DNA from: Nitrospirota bacterium
Lineage (GTDB): Bacteria; Nitrospirota; Thermodesulfovibrionia; Thermodesulfovibrionales; Dissulfurispiraceae
DNA: 64,000 bases
Direction of reading: 5' to 3'
NCBI GenBank assembly: GCA_023476565.1
Contig: JAMCVZ010000068.1
Coordinates: forward strand, 1 to 64,000
Part shown: positions 7,671-59,021 of the stretch, one piece after another
Numbering within the stretch: the first letter of the stretch is position 1
Layout: every line of letters begins with the position of its first letter
Made by a program: the position numbers and the translations under genes
Notes under the pieces: generated by a model
Seen by the model: only the letters and a program-made list of their open reading frames with translations
Databases searched by the model: none
Told to the model about the DNA's origin: nothing

Positions 7671-7753
7671 GGGGACAGTCCCTATTCTACGACTCCGCTG
7701 CTGCTTCGTCCGTGGTAAACCACCTACTGTTGGTAAATAGGGACAGTCCCCTC
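7671..7753. repeat. REP-like inverted repeat, long form, copy 1
   Basis: An 83-base element bounded by GGGGACAGTCCCTATT and its inverse AATAGGGACAGTCCCC. Inside are CTACGAC, a CTTCGTCC stretch and a small hairpin GTGGTAAACCAC. Related copies are at 38815, 43398 and 46241 and a short form at 20814. This element occupies most of the informative part of the 299-base gap between tatA and the response regulator; the rest of that gap shows only the tatA promoter. Confidence 0.85.
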
Positions 7754-18888: not shown

Positions 18889-19671
18889 GTGATACGACAT
18901 ACGTTCTCATTGCTTAACGGGATTGGTGGGAAACTCGAACGGCATGTTTGGAGAAAAGGCATTCTGACATGGGATGGCTTTTGCAAGGCAAAGGAAATTG
19001 ACGGCATTAGTCCTGAAAGGAAAAGTATTTATGACAGCCAGTTGATGCAGGCTTCCATAGAGCTCGGCATAGGCAATGCGGAATACTTTGCCAGGATTAT
19101 GAAGAGGAGGGAGCACTGGAGGCTGTTTGATGCGTTTAAAAACGGAGCGGTTTGCCTTGACATAGAAACGAACGGCTTGCAGCCCGGGTACGGCGGCTAC
19201 GCTACGGTAATAGGGTTCTATAACGGTCTCGACTGGAGATATCTTATAAAAGGCGAGAATCTTACAGCGGAAAACCTTAACCGCGAGCTCTCCGGATATA
19301 AATGCCTTATAACATTTTACGGCTCAGCGTTTGATGTGCCGTTCCTTTTAAGGTCTTTATCCGGTGTCAGGTTTGATATTCCCCATTTTGATCTCTGTTT
19401 TGCGGCCAGGAGGCTGGATATCAACGGCGGATTAAAAAAACTCGAGACCCTGTTCGGTATCGACAGGGATGACATCGTAAAGGGAATGAACGGCTATGAT
19501 GCGGTTAAATTATGGGAGCAGGCGAAAAAGGGGAGTAAGGAAGCCCGGGAACTGCTGCTGGTCTATAACAAGGAAGACACCATAAATCTCATGCGGCTTG
19601 CTGATATCTTATATCAGAAGTTGAAGAGTTCTACAGGAATAGAGGAGTTCATCGCCTGTGGGTGCGCGTAA
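18889..19671 (+). CDS. YprB-like RNase H-fold 3'-5' exonuclease
   Basis: A 260-residue protein with the DEDD exonuclease pattern: AVCLDIETNGLQ (DxE), LITFYGSAFDVPFL (second Asp) and LLVYNKEDTINLMRLADI (YxxxD). It fits the RNase_H_2/YprB group, often linked to nucleic-acid repair. It starts with GTG at 18889; the xerC-like frame overlaps its last 14 bases. Specific substrate is unknown. Confidence 0.75.
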   Translation: MIRHTFSLLNGIGGKLERHVWRKGILTWDGFCKAKEIDGISPERKSIYDSQLMQASIELGIGNAEYFARIMKRREHWRLFDAFKNGAVCLDIETNGLQPGYGGYATVIGFYNGLDWRYLIKGENLTAENLNRELSGYKCLITFYGSAFDVPFLLRSLSGVRFDIPHFDLCFAARRLDINGGLKKLETLFGIDRDDIVKGMNGYDAVKLWEQAKKGSKEARELLLVYNKEDTINLMRLADILYQKLKSSTGIEEFIACGCA

Positions 19672-20710
19672 AGACAGTAACAATAAAGACAGTGACGAGT
19701 TGCCGGTAACAAGTAACACGTTAAAAGATAAAGAAGACCCGTCACTCGTTACTCGTCACTCGTTACTTAAAGAGTTTGCATCGTATCTTTCCATTGAGAG
19801 GGGGTTATCTAAAAATACGGTAGAGTCCTATTTTCTGGACCTGAAAGCTTTTTTTAATTTTCTTGCGGAAATGAAAGGCGGTAACAAGTTACGAGTAACG
19901 AGTGACGAGTTAAATAATAAAAAAGAATCCGAAAACTCGTCACCCGTCACTCGTTACTCGTTGATAACTTTTACAAGGGACGATATCATAAATTATATCG
20001 GCGGGCTTAAAGACGGCGGCTATTCTGCTGCAAGTATTTGCAGGTTCATATCCTCGATTAAGGGACTCTGCAAATTCCTTATTATCGAAAAGGTCATATC
20101 TGATGACCCCACTGAAACACTTAAAACGCCCAAGCAGTGGGACAGGCTGCCGAAGGCGCTCAGCATCGACGATATCAGGAAATTAATGGATATAGAACTG
20201 AAGAGCGCGACGGCTACCAGGGACTCCGCGATGCTGGAGCTCCTGTATTCATCCGGTTTGAGAGTGAGCGAGATAATATCCATCAAGGTTAATGATGTTA
20301 ACTTCGAAAGCGGGTTCCTGAGGGTGATCGGCAAGGGCTCAAAAGAGAGGATCGTACCCATGAACCGCCGTGCAGTCGAAAGGATAAAGCATTACCTGCA
20401 GGAACTGAGGCCCGGTTTGCTCAAGAACAGGCAGTCGCCTTATCTTTTCCTGACAAACAGGGGAATGCCCATGACGAGGCAGAGGTTCTGGCAGGCCCTG
20501 AAAAAACTCGGGGGCAGCGTGGGCATAAAGCTCGCTCCCCACACGATCAGGCATACCTTTGCAACGCATCTCCTGGACGGGGGGGCGGACCTGAGGTCCG
20601 TGCAGAAAATGCTGGGGCATTCAGACATATCCACCACGCAGATTTATACCAGGGTATCCTCCGACAGAATAAGAAAGGTTTATCTTGAACACCACCCGAG
20701 GGCGAAATAG
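19658..20710 (+). CDS. xerC: XerC/D-like tyrosine recombinase with two translated repeat insertions
   Basis: A 350-residue tyrosine recombinase. The N-terminal core-binding domain has LSIERGLSKNTVESYFLDL; the catalytic domain has R in SSGLRVSEI, K in IGKGSKERIVP, HTIRHTFATHLL (HxxR), GHSDISTTQ and nucleophile Tyr in QIYTRVSS. Normal XerC/D is about 300 residues. The extra ~50 come from two palindromic repeat elements translated in frame: at the N-terminus (ELPVTSNTLKDK... SLVTRHSLL) and inside the core-binding domain (GNKLRVTSDELNNK... SPVTRYSLITF). GTG at 19658 is the only sensible start upstream of the first insertion. All catalytic residues remain, so it may be the working dif recombinase. 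Confidence 0.88.
   Translation: MGARKDSNNKDSDELPVTSNTLKDKEDPSLVTRHSLLKEFASYLSIERGLSKNTVESYFLDLKAFFNFLAEMKGGNKLRVTSDELNNKKESENSSPVTRYSLITFTRDDIINYIGGLKDGGYSAASICRFISSIKGLCKFLIIEKVISDDPTETLKTPKQWDRLPKALSIDDIRKLMDIELKSATATRDSAMLELLYSSGLRVSEIISIKVNDVNFESGFLRVIGKGSKERIVPMNRRAVERIKHYLQELRPGLLKNRQSPYLFLTNRGMPMTRQRFWQALKKLGGSVGIKLAPHTIRHTFATHLLDGGADLRSVQKMLGHSDISTTQIYTRVSSDRIRKVYLEHHPRAK
19690..19768. repeat. Hairpin repeat element translated inside xerC, copy 1
   Basis: The left arm has GTGACGAGT and GGTAACAAGTAAC; the core is GTTAAAAGATAAAGAAGACC; the right arm is CGTCACTCGTTACTCG repeated. The element is open in the xerC frame and becomes about 26 residues at the N-terminus. It is a sister of 19881, 25846 and 57801. 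Confidence 0.8.
19881..19963. repeat. Hairpin repeat element translated inside xerC, copy 2
   Basis: The left arm ACGAGTAACGAGTGACGAGTT is the near-perfect inverse of the right arm AACTCGTCACCCGTCACTCG plus TTACTCGTT. The loop is AAATAATAAAAAAGAATCCG. It is a multiple-of-three insertion in frame, giving about 28 residues between helices of the core-binding domain. Confidence 0.85.
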
Positions 20711-25119: not shown

Positions 25120-25850
25120 TGGTATTCGACAAGGTATGGTTTTCATACAATGCGCGTCATGTCCTGAGAGACGTAAGTTTCTCCATCAAGGCTGAAGAGA
25201 AGGTGGCGATCCTGGGCGGCAGCGGGGAGGGCAAGACTACCATACTGAGATTGATAATGGGTCTTTTAAAGCCCGATTCGGGGCGGATCATTATCGACGG
25301 CGAAGATATCACGAACAAGGGCGAGGACCAGCTTAGAGAAGTAAGAATGAGGTTCAGCATCGTCTTCCAGGAAGGCGCGCTCTTTGATTCCATGAGCGTG
25401 AAAGAAAATGTCGCCTTCTGTTTGAGGGAATATACGAAGCTGTCCGAGGAGGAGATTGAAAAGAGGGTGAGGGAATTGCTCAGGACCGTCGGCGTCGAGC
25501 AGGCGATATCCCTTATGCCCGACGAGCTGAGCGGCGGCATGCACAGGAGGGTTGCCGTAGCGCGCTCGCTGGCGGCGTGCGATCCCAGGATGTTTCTGTA
25601 TGACGAGCCTACATCAGGGCTCGATCCCGTAAGCGCCGACAACATATGCAGGCTCATTAACGATCTGTCGAAAGGCGGCAGGGGCCTTATCATCGTTACC
25701 CACAAGATATTTGACGCGATGAGGGTGGCAAACAGGTTTATGTTCATGAAAGAGGGCCGGCCGGTGTTCGATGGAAATAAAGAAGAGCTCGTTAATGCGG
25801 ATGTGCCTGAGATACGGATATTCCTGAGCGAATTGACTTTAAGCCAGTAA
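25116..25850 (+). CDS. mlaF: MlaF-family phospholipid ABC ATPase
   Basis: A 244-residue ABC ATPase. Walker A is ILGGSGEGKTT, the Q-loop is FSIVFQEGALFDSMSV, the signature is DELSGGMHRRVAVARSLA, and Walker B with catalytic Glu is MFLYDEPTSGLDP. The switch His is in IIVTHKIFDA. GALFDS and SGGMHRR are typical of MlaF. The stop codon lies at the edge of a repeat element (25846). Confidence 0.93.
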   Translation: MMVFDKVWFSYNARHVLRDVSFSIKAEEKVAILGGSGEGKTTILRLIMGLLKPDSGRIIIDGEDITNKGEDQLREVRMRFSIVFQEGALFDSMSVKENVAFCLREYTKLSEEEIEKRVRELLRTVGVEQAISLMPDELSGGMHRRVAVARSLAACDPRMFLYDEPTSGLDPVSADNICRLINDLSKGGRGLIIVTHKIFDAMRVANRFMFMKEGRPVFDGNKEELVNADVPEIRIFLSELTLSQ

Positions 25851-25901
25851 CGGGTTAAAAGATAGTAATTCCGAAAACTCGTCACTTGTTACTCGTCACT
25901 G
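25846..25901. repeat. Hairpin-type repeat between mlaF and mlaD
   Basis: AGTAACGGGTTAAAAGATAG, then ATTCCGAAAACTCGTCAC and TTGTTACTCGTCACT. The core GTTAAAAGAT and the CCGAAAACTCGTCAC word are shared with the two xerC copies. The left arm is short, so the fold is weaker here. The mlaF stop falls inside it. Confidence 0.7.
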
Positions 25902-36754: not shown

Positions 36755-36788
36755 ATAAAAAGGCTGAAAGTTGCCGGAGAGTAGTGAC

Positions 36789-38165
36789 GTGTCGCCCACA
36801 AGAGAACTTGCGGTAATCGCCCTCAACAATATCCTGAAGAAATCAAAGAAGCCTAAAGAGGTGCTTGAGGATTTGTCCTTCGATCTCGATAAAAGGGACC
36901 GGGCGTTCCTGATGGAGCTCGTATACGGGGTCTTGAGGCACAGGGATTCTCTTGACTGGATGCTCAAGGATTTCCTGAGAAACCCGTCCGGGCTCCCGGC
37001 CGATACGTTGAACAACCTGAGGATCGCCGTCTACCAGATCACCTCCATGCGGGTCCCTGAATGGGCGGCTGTGAACGAAGCTGTGGATGTCGAAAAATCA
37101 TATAAAGGAAAGGCCCCCCTTGTTAATGCGGTTCTGAGAAATTTTTTGAGGAACAGGGATAAAATAGCTTCCCCGCCGGAGGATAATCCGGTAGGCTGCA
37201 TATCCATAACAACATCGCATCCCGAATGGCTTGTGCGGCGGTGGGTTGAGCGGTTCGGGACTGAAGAGGCTTTGAGCCTTGCCGAAAAGAACAATGAAGT
37301 GCCGCCCTTCACGATAAGGATGGGAAGCGGGGCTGAAAGGGGAGAGGCATTGCTTGTGCTTGCCGAGCACGGGATAAAGGCACGGCCTGCCCGCTATTCA
37401 CCTGCGGGGATAACCATTGAGGATTTCCACTCTTTTGACGGGCTGTCGAAGATACTGCCGTCCGGCTTTATGGTTCAGGATGAGGCCTCCCAGCTTATGG
37501 CATACCTTTTGAATCCGTTGCCCGGCGAAAGAGCCCTTGACGCCTGTGCAGCGCCCGGCGGGAAGACGACGCATATCGCCCAATTGATGAAGGACGGGGG
37601 AGAGGTTGTCTCGGTCGAAATCGATGGGAAAAAACTGGAGCACCTGGAACAGAACATTTCGAGGCTGGGCCTTAAATCGGTCAGAGTTATCCAGTGTGAT
37701 GTGAGAAACCTGGACAATTCCGATTACTGCCGGCAGGTTGCAGACCGCTGCTTTTTCGACCGCATACTCCTCGACGCGCCGTGCTCAGCGACGGGCGTCA
37801 TCAGGAGAAATCCGGACGTTAAATACAGGCACGGGCCTCAAGACCTCATAAGGCTGAAGAGGATGCAGCTTGAAATCCTGCATGCAGTATCAACGCTTCT
37901 TAAGCCGGGAGGGATTATGGTATATTCTGTATGCTCAACCGAGCCGGAGGAGGGAGAAGAGGTAATCAGGGAATTTTTACAGGGCAATCACGGTTTTAGT
38001 ATTATAGAGGGAGATTACGACTTCCTGAGGCGCTTTGAAATCAGGGACTCAGGCCATGTTTTTTACAGGACTTTCCCTCACAGGTATGATATGGACGGCT
38101 TTTTTGCCGCACGGTTGAAGAAAGTGTCAGTGTCAGTGATTAGTGTCGGTGTCGGTGTCAGTTAA
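36789..38165 (+). CDS. rsmB: 16S rRNA m5C967 methyltransferase RsmB
   Basis: A ~458-residue SAM enzyme. An N-terminal NusB-like domain (~1-130) is followed by the methyltransferase domain with LDACAAPGGKTTHIAQLM (SAM), LLDAPCSATGVIRRNP (catalytic Cys) and YSVCSTEPEEGEEV (second Cys). GTG at 36789 is favoured over TTG at 36771 because GGAGAG lies just upstream of it. The last 13 residues (VSVSVISVGVGVS) are read from a hairpin repeat element. Confidence 0.92.
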   Translation: MSPTRELAVIALNNILKKSKKPKEVLEDLSFDLDKRDRAFLMELVYGVLRHRDSLDWMLKDFLRNPSGLPADTLNNLRIAVYQITSMRVPEWAAVNEAVDVEKSYKGKAPLVNAVLRNFLRNRDKIASPPEDNPVGCISITTSHPEWLVRRWVERFGTEEALSLAEKNNEVPPFTIRMGSGAERGEALLVLAEHGIKARPARYSPAGITIEDFHSFDGLSKILPSGFMVQDEASQLMAYLLNPLPGERALDACAAPGGKTTHIAQLMKDGGEVVSVEIDGKKLEHLEQNISRLGLKSVRVIQCDVRNLDNSDYCRQVADRCFFDRILLDAPCSATGVIRRNPDVKYRHGPQDLIRLKRMQLEILHAVSTLLKPGGIMVYSVCSTEPEEGEEVIREFLQGNHGFSIIEGDYDFLRRFEIRDSGHVFYRTFPHRYDMDGFFAARLKKVSVSVISVGVGVS

Positions 38166-38222
38166 AGGATTCCTTTCACCCCTCTTACCGACACTAATCA
38201 CTGACACTGACACTGACACTGA
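38123..38222. repeat. Hairpin of GTGTCAG units at the end of rsmB
   Basis: The left arm is GTGTCAGTGTCAGTGATTAG and GTGTCGGTGTCGGTGTCAG; the loop begins GTTAAAGGATTCCTTTC; the right arm is CCGACACTAATCACTGACAC and further GACACT units. The left arm codes for the end of RsmB including its stop. The element at 55747 is the same family in opposite orientation. It could act as a strong transcript hairpin. Confidence 0.85.
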
Positions 38223-54703: not shown

Positions 54704-55056
54704 GTTTAATAAAGGCGGTAGAGGAAGGTTTTAGAAGAGAGGTCCCGGTTTTTAACATCGGGGACACGGTCAGGATGCATGTCAAGGTTGTAGAAGGTGA
54801 TAAAGAAAGGCTCCAGCCTTTTGAGGGCGTTGTGATTTCAAGAAAGGGAAGCGGTGTAAGGGAAACCTTCATCGTGAGGAAGATATCCTTCGGCGTCGGG
54901 GTTGAAAGGGTTTTCCCTGTGCACTCCCCGTCAATAGATAAAATAGAAGTCCTTAAGAGGGGCGATGTAAGAAAAGCGAAGTTGTATTATCTCAGGGGAA
55001 AGAAGGGAAAGGCCGCAAAGGTTAAAGAGAAGGAGAGGGAAAGGCCGCAGCAGTAA
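54700..55056 (+). CDS. rplS: 50S ribosomal protein L19
   Basis: A 118-residue L19. [51 protein letters not shown] and [13 protein letters not shown]-like end ([16 protein letters not shown]) are conserved. It overlaps trmD by 4 bases and is followed by an AT-rich inverted repeat. Confidence 0.96.
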
Positions 55057-55127
55057 TTCAAAATGCAAAAAGAAAAATTAAAAAATGCGGGGTTCCTCAA
55101 TTTTGAATTTTTCATTTTTTATTTTTA
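55057..55127. repeat. AT-rich inverted repeat between rplS and rnhB
   Basis: AAAATGCAAAAAGAAAAATT leads to a core GTTCCTCAATTTTGAA and then TTTTTCATTTTTTATTTTT. Its reverse complement closely matches 56537-56613, including the core CAAAATTGAGGAA. The two flank rnhB and the DtxR-like gene in opposite orientations. Confidence 0.75.
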
Positions 55128-55131
55128 AGAC

Positions 55132-55767
55132 ATGGACCCTTATGCATTCGATGAAGCCGTAAGAAAAGATGGTTTCGAGGTCATTACAGGGGTCGATGAG
55201 GCAGGCAGGGGACCGCTTGCAGGGCCTGTAGTGGCAGCAGCGGTAATTCTGCCCCGGGAGATTAAAATAGACGGTGTCAGGGATTCGAAGAAAATACCGG
55301 AAGGCGAAAGGGAGCAGCTTTTCCGGGAGATTTTGATCAATGCCCTTGATGTAGGCGTCGGTATTGTCGGGGCGGAAGAGATCGATAGAGTCAATATACT
55401 GAGAGCCACCATACTGGCGATGCATAATGCAATAACAGGCTTGTCGAAAAAAACTGATATTATCCTTATTGATGCCCTCCGGATCCCATCCATTAAGATA
55501 ACCCAGAAACCGGTTATCAAAGGTGACGCGAAGAGCGCCTCAATAGCTGCCGCATCAATAATCGCCAAAGTCGTCAGAGATAGAATCATGGTCGAATATC
55601 ATTCCCTGTATCCGCACTACGGCTTTGACAGGCATAAGGGCTACGGAACCAGGGTGCATCTCGACAGGATCAGGCAGTACGGCCCATGCCCGATACACAG
55701 GAAGAGTTTTCAAAAGGTGATGGATGTGGAATTACCGTTTGAGGGAAGTGTCGGTGTCAGTGATTAG
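55132..55767 (+). CDS. rnhB: Ribonuclease HII
   Basis: A 211-residue RNase HII cutting RNA in RNA-DNA hybrids. The active site is GVDEAGRGPLAGPVVAAAVIL (D22, E23), with LIDALRIPSIKI (third Asp) and HSLYPHYGFDRHKGYGTRVH typical. The last residues (EGSVGVSD) come from the hairpin element that begins at 55747. The gene sits with rplS as in many genomes. Confidence 0.94.
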   Translation: MDPYAFDEAVRKDGFEVITGVDEAGRGPLAGPVVAAAVILPREIKIDGVRDSKKIPEGEREQLFREILINALDVGVGIVGAEEIDRVNILRATILAMHNAITGLSKKTDIILIDALRIPSIKITQKPVIKGDAKSASIAAASIIAKVVRDRIMVEYHSLYPHYGFDRHKGYGTRVHLDRIRQYGPCPIHRKSFQKVMDVELPFEGSVGVSD

Positions 55768-55817
55768 TGTCGGGGGGAAATTCCTTTAACTGACACTGAC
55801 ACTAATCACTGACACTG
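55747..55817. repeat. Hairpin of GTGTCAG units at the end of rnhB
   Basis: The left arm is GTGTCGGTGTCAGTGATTAG and GTGTCGG; the loop is GGGGAAATTCCTTTAAC; the right arm is TGACACTGACACTAATCACT and GACACT. The loop is the reverse complement of that in the rsmB element (GTTAAAGGATTCC), so both are the same family placed in opposite orientations. The left arm encodes the RnhB C-terminus. Confidence 0.85.
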
Positions 55818-56536: not shown

Positions 56537-56613
56537 CGAAATGTAAAATGGAAAAATCAAAATTGAGGAATTACATAATTTTTCATTTTTCTTTTTGCAT
56601 TTTGAGTTTTCCA
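56537..56613. repeat. AT-rich inverted repeat upstream of hypF
   Basis: AAAATGGAAAAATCAAAATTG and core ATTGAGGAATTACATAA followed by TTTTTCATTTTTCTTTTTGC and ATTTTGAG. It ends 2 bases before the hypF ATG, so no ribosome site is seen and the leader is the repeat itself. It matches the reverse complement of 55057-55127. Confidence 0.75.
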
Positions 56614-56615
56614 AT

Positions 56616-59021
56616 ATGAGCGGTCTTCGCATATCGGTGAAGGGCGTTGTCCAGGGTGTCGGTTTCAGGCCTTTCGTCTACTCCCTCGCGAAAAAGTTCG
56701 GCCTCAAGGGCTCTGTGAAAAATACATCGGACGGCGTCGTGATCGAGGCCGAAGGCGATACGCTTGACGGATTTATTGAGGCCCTTCAAACCGATTACCC
56801 CCCTCTTGCCAGAATAGATTCGGTAGACATACGGGAGCTCCCCTCATGCGGCCGCAAGGATTTCATAATTATCGACAGCGTTGACAGCGGCAGCTTCACG
56901 CTCGTCTCTCCCGATATTTCCATTTGTAATGACTGCCTGAAGGAGCTGTTTGATCCGTCCGGCAGGCGGTATCTTTATCCGTTTATAAATTGTACGAACT
57001 GCGGCCCCCGGTATTCCATCACCAAAAGAGTTCCTTATGACCGGCCGAATACGACGATGTCGGAATTCACGATGTGCTCCCGTTGCTCGGAGGAGTATCA
57101 CAATCCCGAGGACCGCAGGTTTCATGCGCAGCCCAATGCCTGCAGCGAGTGCGGCCCGCACGTGTCGTTGCGCGTTGCACATTCCCCGGTGCGGGACAAT
57201 AAAGGAATAAGGCATGAGGTCCGTGATGAGCCCACAGGAGGAGAGGCAATAAGGAGGACCATAGAACTTTTGAGGAAAGGCGCTCTTGTCGCCGTTAAAG
57301 GGCTCGGCGGGTTTCACCTCTGTTGCGATGCCGCGAATGAGACGGCCGTCAGGAGATTGAGGGAAAGGAAAAGAAGGAATAATAAGCCGTTTGCTCTCAT
57401 GTCGCCTGACGTTGAAACGATTAGGCGTTTCTGCGAGGTCTCGGAAGATGAGAGAAGAGCGCTCAATGACATGCGCAGGCCGGTAGTGCTCCTGGGAAAG
57501 AGGGCAGATACAGCTCTCCCCTTTGAAATTGCGCCGAACAATAAATACCTGGGATTCATGCTGCCCTACACCCCCCTGCATTACCTCCTGTTCCATTATC
57601 CTTTGACTCATCACTCATCACCCATCACCCATCACTGCTTTTCCGCCCTGGTTATGACAAGCGGGAACCTCTCGGAGGAGCCGATAGTTGTTGATAACGA
57701 GGATGCCTTCATACGGCTTTCCGCTGTTGCCGATGCATTTCTTTTGCACAACAGGGATATTTTCATGAGGGTCGATGACTCGGTGGTCAAAAAAGGCGTT
57801 AACAAATTACGGGTAACGAGTAACGAGTTAAAGAGCAAAGACAATTACCCGCCGCTGTTTTTCGTCCGCCGTTCCCGCGGGTTTGCTCCTGAGTCTATCC
57901 GGTTGGAAGACGACGGTCCCGATGTTCTGGGCTGCGGGGCTGATATCAAAAACACCTTTACCATTACAAGAGGCCCTTATGCCATCATGAGCCAGCATAT
58001 CGGTGATATGGAGAATCTTGAGACCCTGAATTTTTTTGAAGAGGCCCTCGGGAACCTCAAACAGGTCTACAGGTCGAACCCCCTCGCCCTCGCCTATGAT
58101 CTGCATCCTGCCTACCTGTCCTCCCGCTGGGCGCTGGACCTCAGCCGCAAGACAGGGATCGGAAGTTACGGAATACAGCATCATTATGCTCATGCGGCAT
58201 CCGTCATGGCTGAAAAGGGGATAAAGGACAGGGTTATCGGCATCACCTTTGACGGCGCCGGATACGGCACGGACGGTAATCTGTGGGGAGGCGAGTTCCT
58301 TGTGTGCGATCTGCAGGGTTTCATAAGGGCCGCACATTTCAAGTATATTCCGCTGCCGGGCGGCGCGAGCGCCGTAAAGGAATGCTGGAGGACCGCGATC
58401 AGTTATATCGCTGATTCCGTTAAGGAGGATAAAATCCGGGGGTATTTTGATTCCACGGGATTCACTGAAAAGTACGGGAGGGATAAAATCGGCAGCATAT
58501 TAAAAATACTCGACGCCGGGCAGTTCTCCCCGCTTACATCAGGCGCCGGCAGGCTGTTTGATGCGGTCGCCGCGCTTACGGGAATATGTGATAAAAACAC
58601 TTTCGAGGGCGAAGCCGCCATCGCCCTTGAGAGTATAATCCCCCGCTCCTCCTGCCCGGAGGTGTTTCCCGTCAGAATTTCAGATGGGGAGCCTTTTATC
58701 GTAGATTTCTCGCCGATGATCCTGGCCATGCTTGAGAGTATGGAGAATCAGGTGGATAAAGGTCTGATTGCCGCCCGGTTCCACAACACGCTTGCAGAAG
58801 TAATAACTGAAGTTGCCGGACGCATCAGCCGCAAATATGGGATTAAACGGATTGTGCTCAGCGGCGGAGTCTTTCAAAACATGTATCTCCTGGAAAATTC
58901 TCTGCACAGGCTGCTGTCCTCCGGGTTTGAGGTCCATACCAATGAGAACGTACCCTGTAATGATGCCGGCGTATCTCTCGGCCAGGCATATATTTTAAGG
59001 GAAAGACTGAAAACTCTTTAA
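56616..59021 (+). CDS. hypF: [NiFe] hydrogenase maturation protein HypF, with two translated repeat insertions
   Basis: HypF turns carbamoyl phosphate into the thiocarboxamide that HypE converts to the CN ligands of the [NiFe] centre. Visible domains: acylphosphatase (~1-90, VKGVVQGVGFRPFVYSLA), two CxxC-x18-CxxC zinc motifs (CNDC...CTNC and CSRC...CSEC, ~105-185), a YrdC-like domain (~205-400) and a Kae1-like domain with HHYAHAASVMAEKG and VLSGGVFQNMYL. About 801 residues, longer than usual ~750. The surplus includes two repeat-derived stretches: PLTHHSSPITHH (~329-341) and NKLRVTSNELKSKDN (~395-412). Both lie in the YrdC-domain neighbourhood, flanked by conserved ALVMTSGNLSEEPI and FVRRSRGFAPE. 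Confidence 0.93.
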   Translation: MSGLRISVKGVVQGVGFRPFVYSLAKKFGLKGSVKNTSDGVVIEAEGDTLDGFIEALQTDYPPLARIDSVDIRELPSCGRKDFIIIDSVDSGSFTLVSPDISICNDCLKELFDPSGRRYLYPFINCTNCGPRYSITKRVPYDRPNTTMSEFTMCSRCSEEYHNPEDRRFHAQPNACSECGPHVSLRVAHSPVRDNKGIRHEVRDEPTGGEAIRRTIELLRKGALVAVKGLGGFHLCCDAANETAVRRLRERKRRNNKPFALMSPDVETIRRFCEVSEDERRALNDMRRPVVLLGKRADTALPFEIAPNNKYLGFMLPYTPLHYLLFHYPLTHHSSPITHHCFSALVMTSGNLSEEPIVVDNEDAFIRLSAVADAFLLHNRDIFMRVDDSVVKKGVNKLRVTSNELKSKDNYPPLFFVRRSRGFAPESIRLEDDGPDVLGCGADIKNTFTITRGPYAIMSQHIGDMENLETLNFFEEALGNLKQVYRSNPLALAYDLHPAYLSSRWALDLSRKTGIGSYGIQHHYAHAASVMAEKGIKDRVIGITFDGAGYGTDGNLWGGEFLVCDLQGFIRAAHFKYIPLPGGASAVKECWRTAISYIADSVKEDKIRGYFDSTGFTEKYGRDKIGSILKILDAGQFSPLTSGAGRLFDAVAALTGICDKNTFEGEAAIALESIIPRSSCPEVFPVRISDGEPFIVDFSPMILAMLESMENQVDKGLIAARFHNTLAEVITEVAGRISRKYGIKRIVLSGGVFQNMYLLENSLHRLLSSGFEVHTNENVPCNDAGVSLGQAYILRERLKTL
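57604..57637. repeat. Translated repeat in hypF, CATCAC type
   Basis: GACTCATCACTCATCACCC plus CATCACCCATCACTGC: five degenerate 7-nt units (one arm of the hairpin-type elements), without an opposite arm nearby. Read in frame as PLTHHSSPITHHC. Confidence 0.7.
57801..57850. repeat. Translated repeat in hypF, GTAACGAGT type
   Basis: AACAAATTACGGGTAACGAG and TAACGAGTTAAAGAGCAAAG, then AATTACCCGC. This is the left arm and core of the xerC-type element with most of the right arm missing. Peptide NKLRVTSNELKSK parallels NKLRVTSDELNNK inside the XerC-like protein, same frame. Confidence 0.8.

Follow-up and report, generated by a model that had tools for sequence, protein, structure and literature searches.

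Palindromic repeat elements built of 7-nt units are translated within HypF, a XerC-like recombinase and other proteins of a Nitrospirota bacterium

A stretch of 64,000 nucleotides from a Nitrospirota bacterium (contig JAMCVZ010000068.1; referred to as the window) contains the hydrogenase maturation gene hypF and the gene of a XerC/XerD-like tyrosine recombinase. Two inserts in HypF and a nearly identical peptide in the recombinase were traced to one family of repeat elements of roughly 70 to 110 bp. This family is palindromic and dispersed through the genome; its copies are translated in frame, filtered by stop codons and found at conserved positions, and the length of their arms changes. The window lies on contig C2 of a genome of 2.67 Mb in 73 contigs (G000), which most likely belongs to the Thermodesulfovibrionia, judging by the taxonomy of records that contain the same DNA (Nitrospirae and Thermodesulfovibrionia metagenome assemblies). 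All genomes compared were assemblies, many of them from metagenomes, and an artefact is unlikely because independent assemblies agree.

The hypF gene and its two inserts

The hypF gene (positions 56616 to 59021, plus strand; TIGR00143, 769 bits) encodes the hydrogenase maturation carbamoyltransferase and is present as a single copy in G000, where one match was obtained. Insert 2 (57792 to 57855, plus strand) was recognized by the DNA profile and consists of a sense left arm and the loop, read as KGVNKLRVTSNELKSKDN; a decayed right arm probably extends as far as about 57861. Within this insert the peptide NKLRVTSNELKSK is encoded by GTAACGAGTAACGAGT (57806 to 57828). The recombinase peptide NKLRVTSDELNNK is specified by the same DNA motif in the same frame, as the sequence-only reading had stated. 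Insert 1 (57594 to 57642, minus strand) is read as PLTHHSSPITHH, encoded by a (ACTCATC)n heptamer array at 57606 to 57636. It had been regarded as an element of a second kind; the stretch is real, but an antisense nhmmer match identified it as half an element of the same family, comprising an arm and the edge of the loop.

Both stretches fell in gaps of the alignment with the solved HypF structure 3vth, and most HypF relatives lacked both of them. The closest relatives (65 to 69 percent identical) had no element at site 2. Where the residues were shared by a relative, the DNA repeat was present as well: HypF of genome G034 carries RVTSDELRVMSN in the corresponding place. The conserved segments ALVMTSGN and FVRRSRG each adjoin a different insert, but these segments are about 60 residues apart and not, as had been assumed, adjacent. 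Hairpins had also been expected in hypF; neither HypF piece showed hairpin folding (z -0.2 and +0.6), whereas both copies in the recombinase gene fold. The HypF inserts are most likely neutral padding, and we propose that they are retained because HypF tolerates them.

The recombinase gene (19658 to 20710, plus strand; PRK00283, 346 bits) contains two full elements on the plus strand. One, near the N terminus, extends from 19684 to 19769 and is read as KDSDELPVTSNTLKDKEDPSLVTRHSLL (folding z -3.5); the other extends from 19873 to 19970 and is read as KGGNKLRVTSDELNNKKESENSSPVTRYSL (z -6.1). One further copy was detected with the DNA profile at 25845 to 25901 on the plus strand, outside any long open frame.

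Structure and copy number of the element

The element consists of two inverted arms of 7-nt units (ACYCRTY, on either strand) flanking a short conserved loop. A complete copy begins with the end AARRCAGT, followed by a left arm of RACRAGT units, the loop, a right arm of ACTCGTY units and the end ACTGYCTT. The loop is about TTAAARATAADAARGAATCCGAAA or near TTAAAGATAAKAARGAATCCGAAA, and the loop sequence AAGATAAKAARGAATCCGAA was common to about 100 loci of G000. In one sub-family the arms are AATGNGT/ACTCATY and the ends CCGT/ACGG. Full copies folded well, with folding means of -4.3 and -3.6. No Rfam match was found in the window or in loci L096, L078 and L067.

A pattern of two units plus two bases (ACYCRTYACYCRTYAC) gave 104 matches in the genome, while the reversed pattern, which served as the control for heptamer-pattern counts, gave one; chance is thereby ruled out, and the repeat of HypF and the recombinase is dispersed as had been proposed. 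The DNA profile detected 110 copies in the fetched loci. About 36 copies had no long open frame and represent non-genic members of the same family. With an orientation-neutral DNA pattern, 39 of 69 clusters lay within open reading frames (ORFs), a few of which may be spurious. Intragenic fractions are approximate, because the loci had been selected by their match to the element.

Arms can also multiply together with their spacer: in locus L274 of the same-genus genome G001, positions 1327 to 1597 hold four left arms in direct repeat attached to one hairpin. The copies in carA and queA are interrupted by a nested REP-like repeat of the GGGGACTGTCCC type. REP-like palindromes of the form GGGGAC(A/T)GTCCC, which resemble these nested copies, occur in the window at 7671, 20814, 38815, 38849, 43398 and 46241 and also in loci L073 and L152; they were not located beside the Y1 transposases found.

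Reading frame and shared peptide

Six-frame translation of three full elements showed one open frame, the other five containing stops. The shared frame and peptide can thus be attributed to selection against stops, and no frame-choosing mechanism is needed. The peptide common to intact copies is KDSNKLRVTSNELKDKKESENSLLVTRHSSL. Copies were counted as intragenic when at least 50 residues of the ORF lay on each side. By this definition 48 copies were in sense and 3 in antisense orientation; the latter were all partial, and one of their ORFs is probably spurious. A single codon phase was used by 45 of the 48 sense copies. The common frame was open in 0.96 of the 28 full intragenic copies, and the other two sense frames in at most 0.04. 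Of the 38 full copies that no long ORF spans, 0.50 were open in this frame, several of them lying near gene ends. Read in reverse, a heptamer array encounters a TAA or TGA stop once per 21 nt; genic copies escape these stops by having TTA or TTG at the positions concerned.

Host proteins

The dispersed motif yields the same peptide in many unrelated proteins. Peptide sharing of this kind had been thought rare, but in G000 it is common, with about 45 inserts in 37 long ORFs. Hosts identified by curated profiles were RecN, MnmA, LeuS, SMC, MurE, alanine racemase (Alr), FolC, QueA, QueC, two paralogues of CobB, CarA, YbeY, GlnD, FlgH, LpxK, ComEC, BioD, a type-4 uracil-DNA glycosylase, a CCA nucleotidyltransferase-like protein and CbiG/CobJ. 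A CoA-dehydratase activase contained three inserts. The MnmA insert fell in a gap when the protein was aligned to the solved MnmA structure 2der. Neither LeuS nor HypF has a second full, insert-free copy in G000, and the insert-bearing forms should therefore be the working proteins.

Distribution and turnover in the order

At a threshold of E 1e-4 the peptide profile matched 31 of 157 genomes of the order, mostly inside long ORFs; 135 matches came from G001. Across the phylum, 65 of 296 genomes had three heptamers in a row. Insert positions were widely shared: 84 of 132 inserts could be placed in 25 groups, each occupying an orthologous position in two or more genomes, with up to nine genomes in four families at one site. 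Among 55 inserts outside G000 whose host was homologous to a G000 host, 44 were at the same position, in hosts averaging 495 residues. DNA identity at the same site was 0.758 within a family and 0.701 between families, compared with 0.680 for unrelated pairs; the identity among copies within one genome was 0.74 (G000 left out).

The content of a given site turns over. Inserts at the same site alternated between the sub-families VTSNEL/VTRHSS and VMRNEL/ITHHAS. Most sites were filled in both G001 and G000, with differences in arm number and duplication. At orthologous sites (L275 against L162, and L300 against L081) G001 had ACTCATT and G000 had CATTTTG. Matches to (CATTTTG)n, a second family of heptamers, were few in G000 (4, against 2 in the control). 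An A/T-rich inverted pair of 70 nt with ATTTTTC/CATTTTG-like units, 83 percent complementary, was observed in the window at 55055 to 55124 and 56539 to 56608, upstream of the genes for RNase HII and HypF. A further repeat family also enters coding DNA: GTGTCA/GACACT hexamer inverted repeats at 38112 to 38222 and 55736 to 55817 extend over the ends of two unrelated genes, those of RsmB (36771 to 38165) and RNase HII (55132 to 55767), and are read as part of the C termini.

The linkers of 32 HypF relatives, selected solely as HypF, had a lag-7 self-match of 0.389, compared with 0.259 for the remainder of the gene (z 17.4 relative to codon shuffling). Lags of 14 and 21 were also raised, and no other lag up to 21 was prominent. 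The units differed, and included TCAAATC, GGTTCAC, CTATTGC and CAGTCAA. In locus L047 (G036) the HypF linker contains PSPLAGEGKGEG, translated from a CCCTCTCCCC palindrome. In the group of L167 (G021) and L165 (G005), CAGTCAA heptamers give rise to 60 residues, and TCAAATC and ACCCATC heptamers occur in one linker.

Origin of the inserts

The stretches in HypF and the recombinase are very probably copies, whole or fragmentary, of a palindromic element that is non-autonomous and present in high copy number, is stop-filtered in genes and changes its arms in steps of 7 nt. Copies would have spread through the genome by transposition or a related process. The orientation and phase of genic copies indicate that only those free of stops survive, which would be why unrelated proteins carry the same peptide. 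The survivors would sit in loops, presumably at the surface, that tolerate extra residues, and would be neutral in effect. Their arms may then grow and shrink by 7 nt at a time. Loops used once may be used again, so that orthologous linkers of other genera and families would come to hold related or different heptamer inserts.

Several observations weigh against this explanation. The genome contained no IS630-type DDE_3 transposase (other DDE families were not searched), and only one of nine Y1 transposase loci, near recN, had the element beside it; IS630 and RAYT sources were rejected on these grounds. No clean empty site, from which a target-site duplication could be read, was found in G001, where the sites are filled as in G000, and this comparison yielded no such duplication; TA, the suspected duplication, was often present at the element ends. 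The strong sharing of positions between families is also compatible with conversion that overwrote old inserts, in place of new insertions.

The last point leads to the best of the alternatives, which we consider possible though rather unlikely: that the inserts are ancient, vertically inherited and homogenised within genomes by recombination, with little new insertion. The 25 shared sites agree with such a history, as does the high identity within genomes and, inside a family, between copies at one site. The low identity at the same site across families does not, nor does the absence of the site-2 element from the closest HypF relatives, and it is difficult to see how homogenisation could turn short, imperfect repeats into different heptamer families.

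Local slippage, by which each linker would have grown its own heptamer array in place, in the manner of simple sequence repeats and with no dispersed element, is improbable as a general explanation. It would account for the dominance of period 7 in the HypF linkers of relatives, for heptamers that differ between genera and for the variation in arm length among close relatives. About 100 loci of one genome with a common heptamer, common ends, an inverted layout and the loop AAGATAAKAARGAATCCGAA could not, however, have been produced independently. Slippage is refuted for the main family in G000, and linkers with one short array may still have originated in this way.

It is very unlikely that the insert is a functional peptide module, for example a contact motif or surface tag, which spread because its amino-acid sequence was selected: although the same peptide, frame and positions recur in several families of the order, the peptide frame is the only open one, the sequence at a site shifts between sub-families and to unrelated heptamers, fragments, antisense pieces and non-genic copies exist, and 126 of the 157 genomes had no match at the profile threshold.

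Beyond the element itself, the fixed 7-nt unit combined with unit sequences that differ between genera points to an unknown copying process. We suggest, tentatively and with more doubt than confidence, that the Thermodesulfovibrionia share a process which forms or inserts 7-nt repeats whatever the unit sequence. Such a process would write and rewrite translated inserts in a fixed set of core-protein loops throughout the order, replacing their content but not their positions.

Coding palindromes have so far been described mainly in reduced intracellular genomes; here they are present in high copy in metagenome-assembled genomes of probably free-living anaerobes. Inserts in a tRNA synthetase, SMC, cell-wall enzymes and cofactor enzymes, at positions reused between families, offer a natural experiment on a large scale, in which the sites where proteins accept new peptides, and the origin and turnover of such peptides, can be studied.

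Comparison with known systems

No report of coding palindromes of this type in Nitrospirota was found in the literature searched, which covered few subscription papers. In Borgs, tandem repeats within ORFs preserve the reading frame, and the protein they add is probably flexible (PMC9879509). The Borg units in ORFs are direct and divisible by three, whereas the unit here is 7 nt and the frame is kept by total length. The enterobacterial RU-1/ERIC, RU-2 and RU-3 repeats, which resemble miniature inverted-repeat transposable elements, are small and mobile and carry open frames that are joined to genes in frame (PMC2229807, PMC2759123). In contrast, the present inserts are located inside core enzymes whose flanking protein is intact, and neither a parent transposase nor a terminal duplication was found for them.

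Intragenic REPs of the GTAG and CGTC families are likewise palindromic repeats within ORFs, some of them near the same site of orthologues, as in recB of Xanthomonas (PMC3733652). The present element differs in its CAGT/ACTG ends, in lacking a GTAG or CGTC tag and in its heptamer structure, which REPs do not have; the RAYT-like genes of G000, apart from the Y1 locus near recN, are not flanked by it. Tandem 7-nt units are also characteristic of the heptameric repeats of cyanobacteria, named STRR. The heptameric repeats of Calothrix, Nostoc and Xanthomonas have many unit sequences, high copy numbers and variable numbers of units; such repeats are over-represented in bacteria, have received little study and, where examined, avoid coding DNA (PMC4692102). 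The present repeats differ in forming inverted pairs of arms around a conserved loop and in that many copies are translated.

The closest kind of element appears to be the Rickettsia palindromic elements (RPE). RPE are described as small hairpin repeats of about 100 to 150 bp that are located both between genes and in frame in unrelated conserved genes (PMC10969869, PMC2229807, PMC3733652). Each RPE family is stated there to encode a conserved peptide (Ogata 2000, 2002, via the same three papers), and at least one recipient, a guanylate kinase, to stay active in Rickettsia (PMC2229807). The element described here seems to work like RPE as they are described. Both are palindromic stem-loops in many copies, although here the full copies fold and the HypF pieces do not; both enter unrelated conserved genes in frame and encode a peptide specific to the family (here 45 of 48 sense copies in one phase), and both have intergenic copies (here about 36 without a long open frame). 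The present system differs in that its bacterium is not an obligate intracellular alphaproteobacterium and its arms are made of 7-nt units. It also comprises about 45 inserts, spread over 37 ORFs of a single genome, compared with the 19 reading frames reported for the first RPE, and its insert positions are reused across families of the order.
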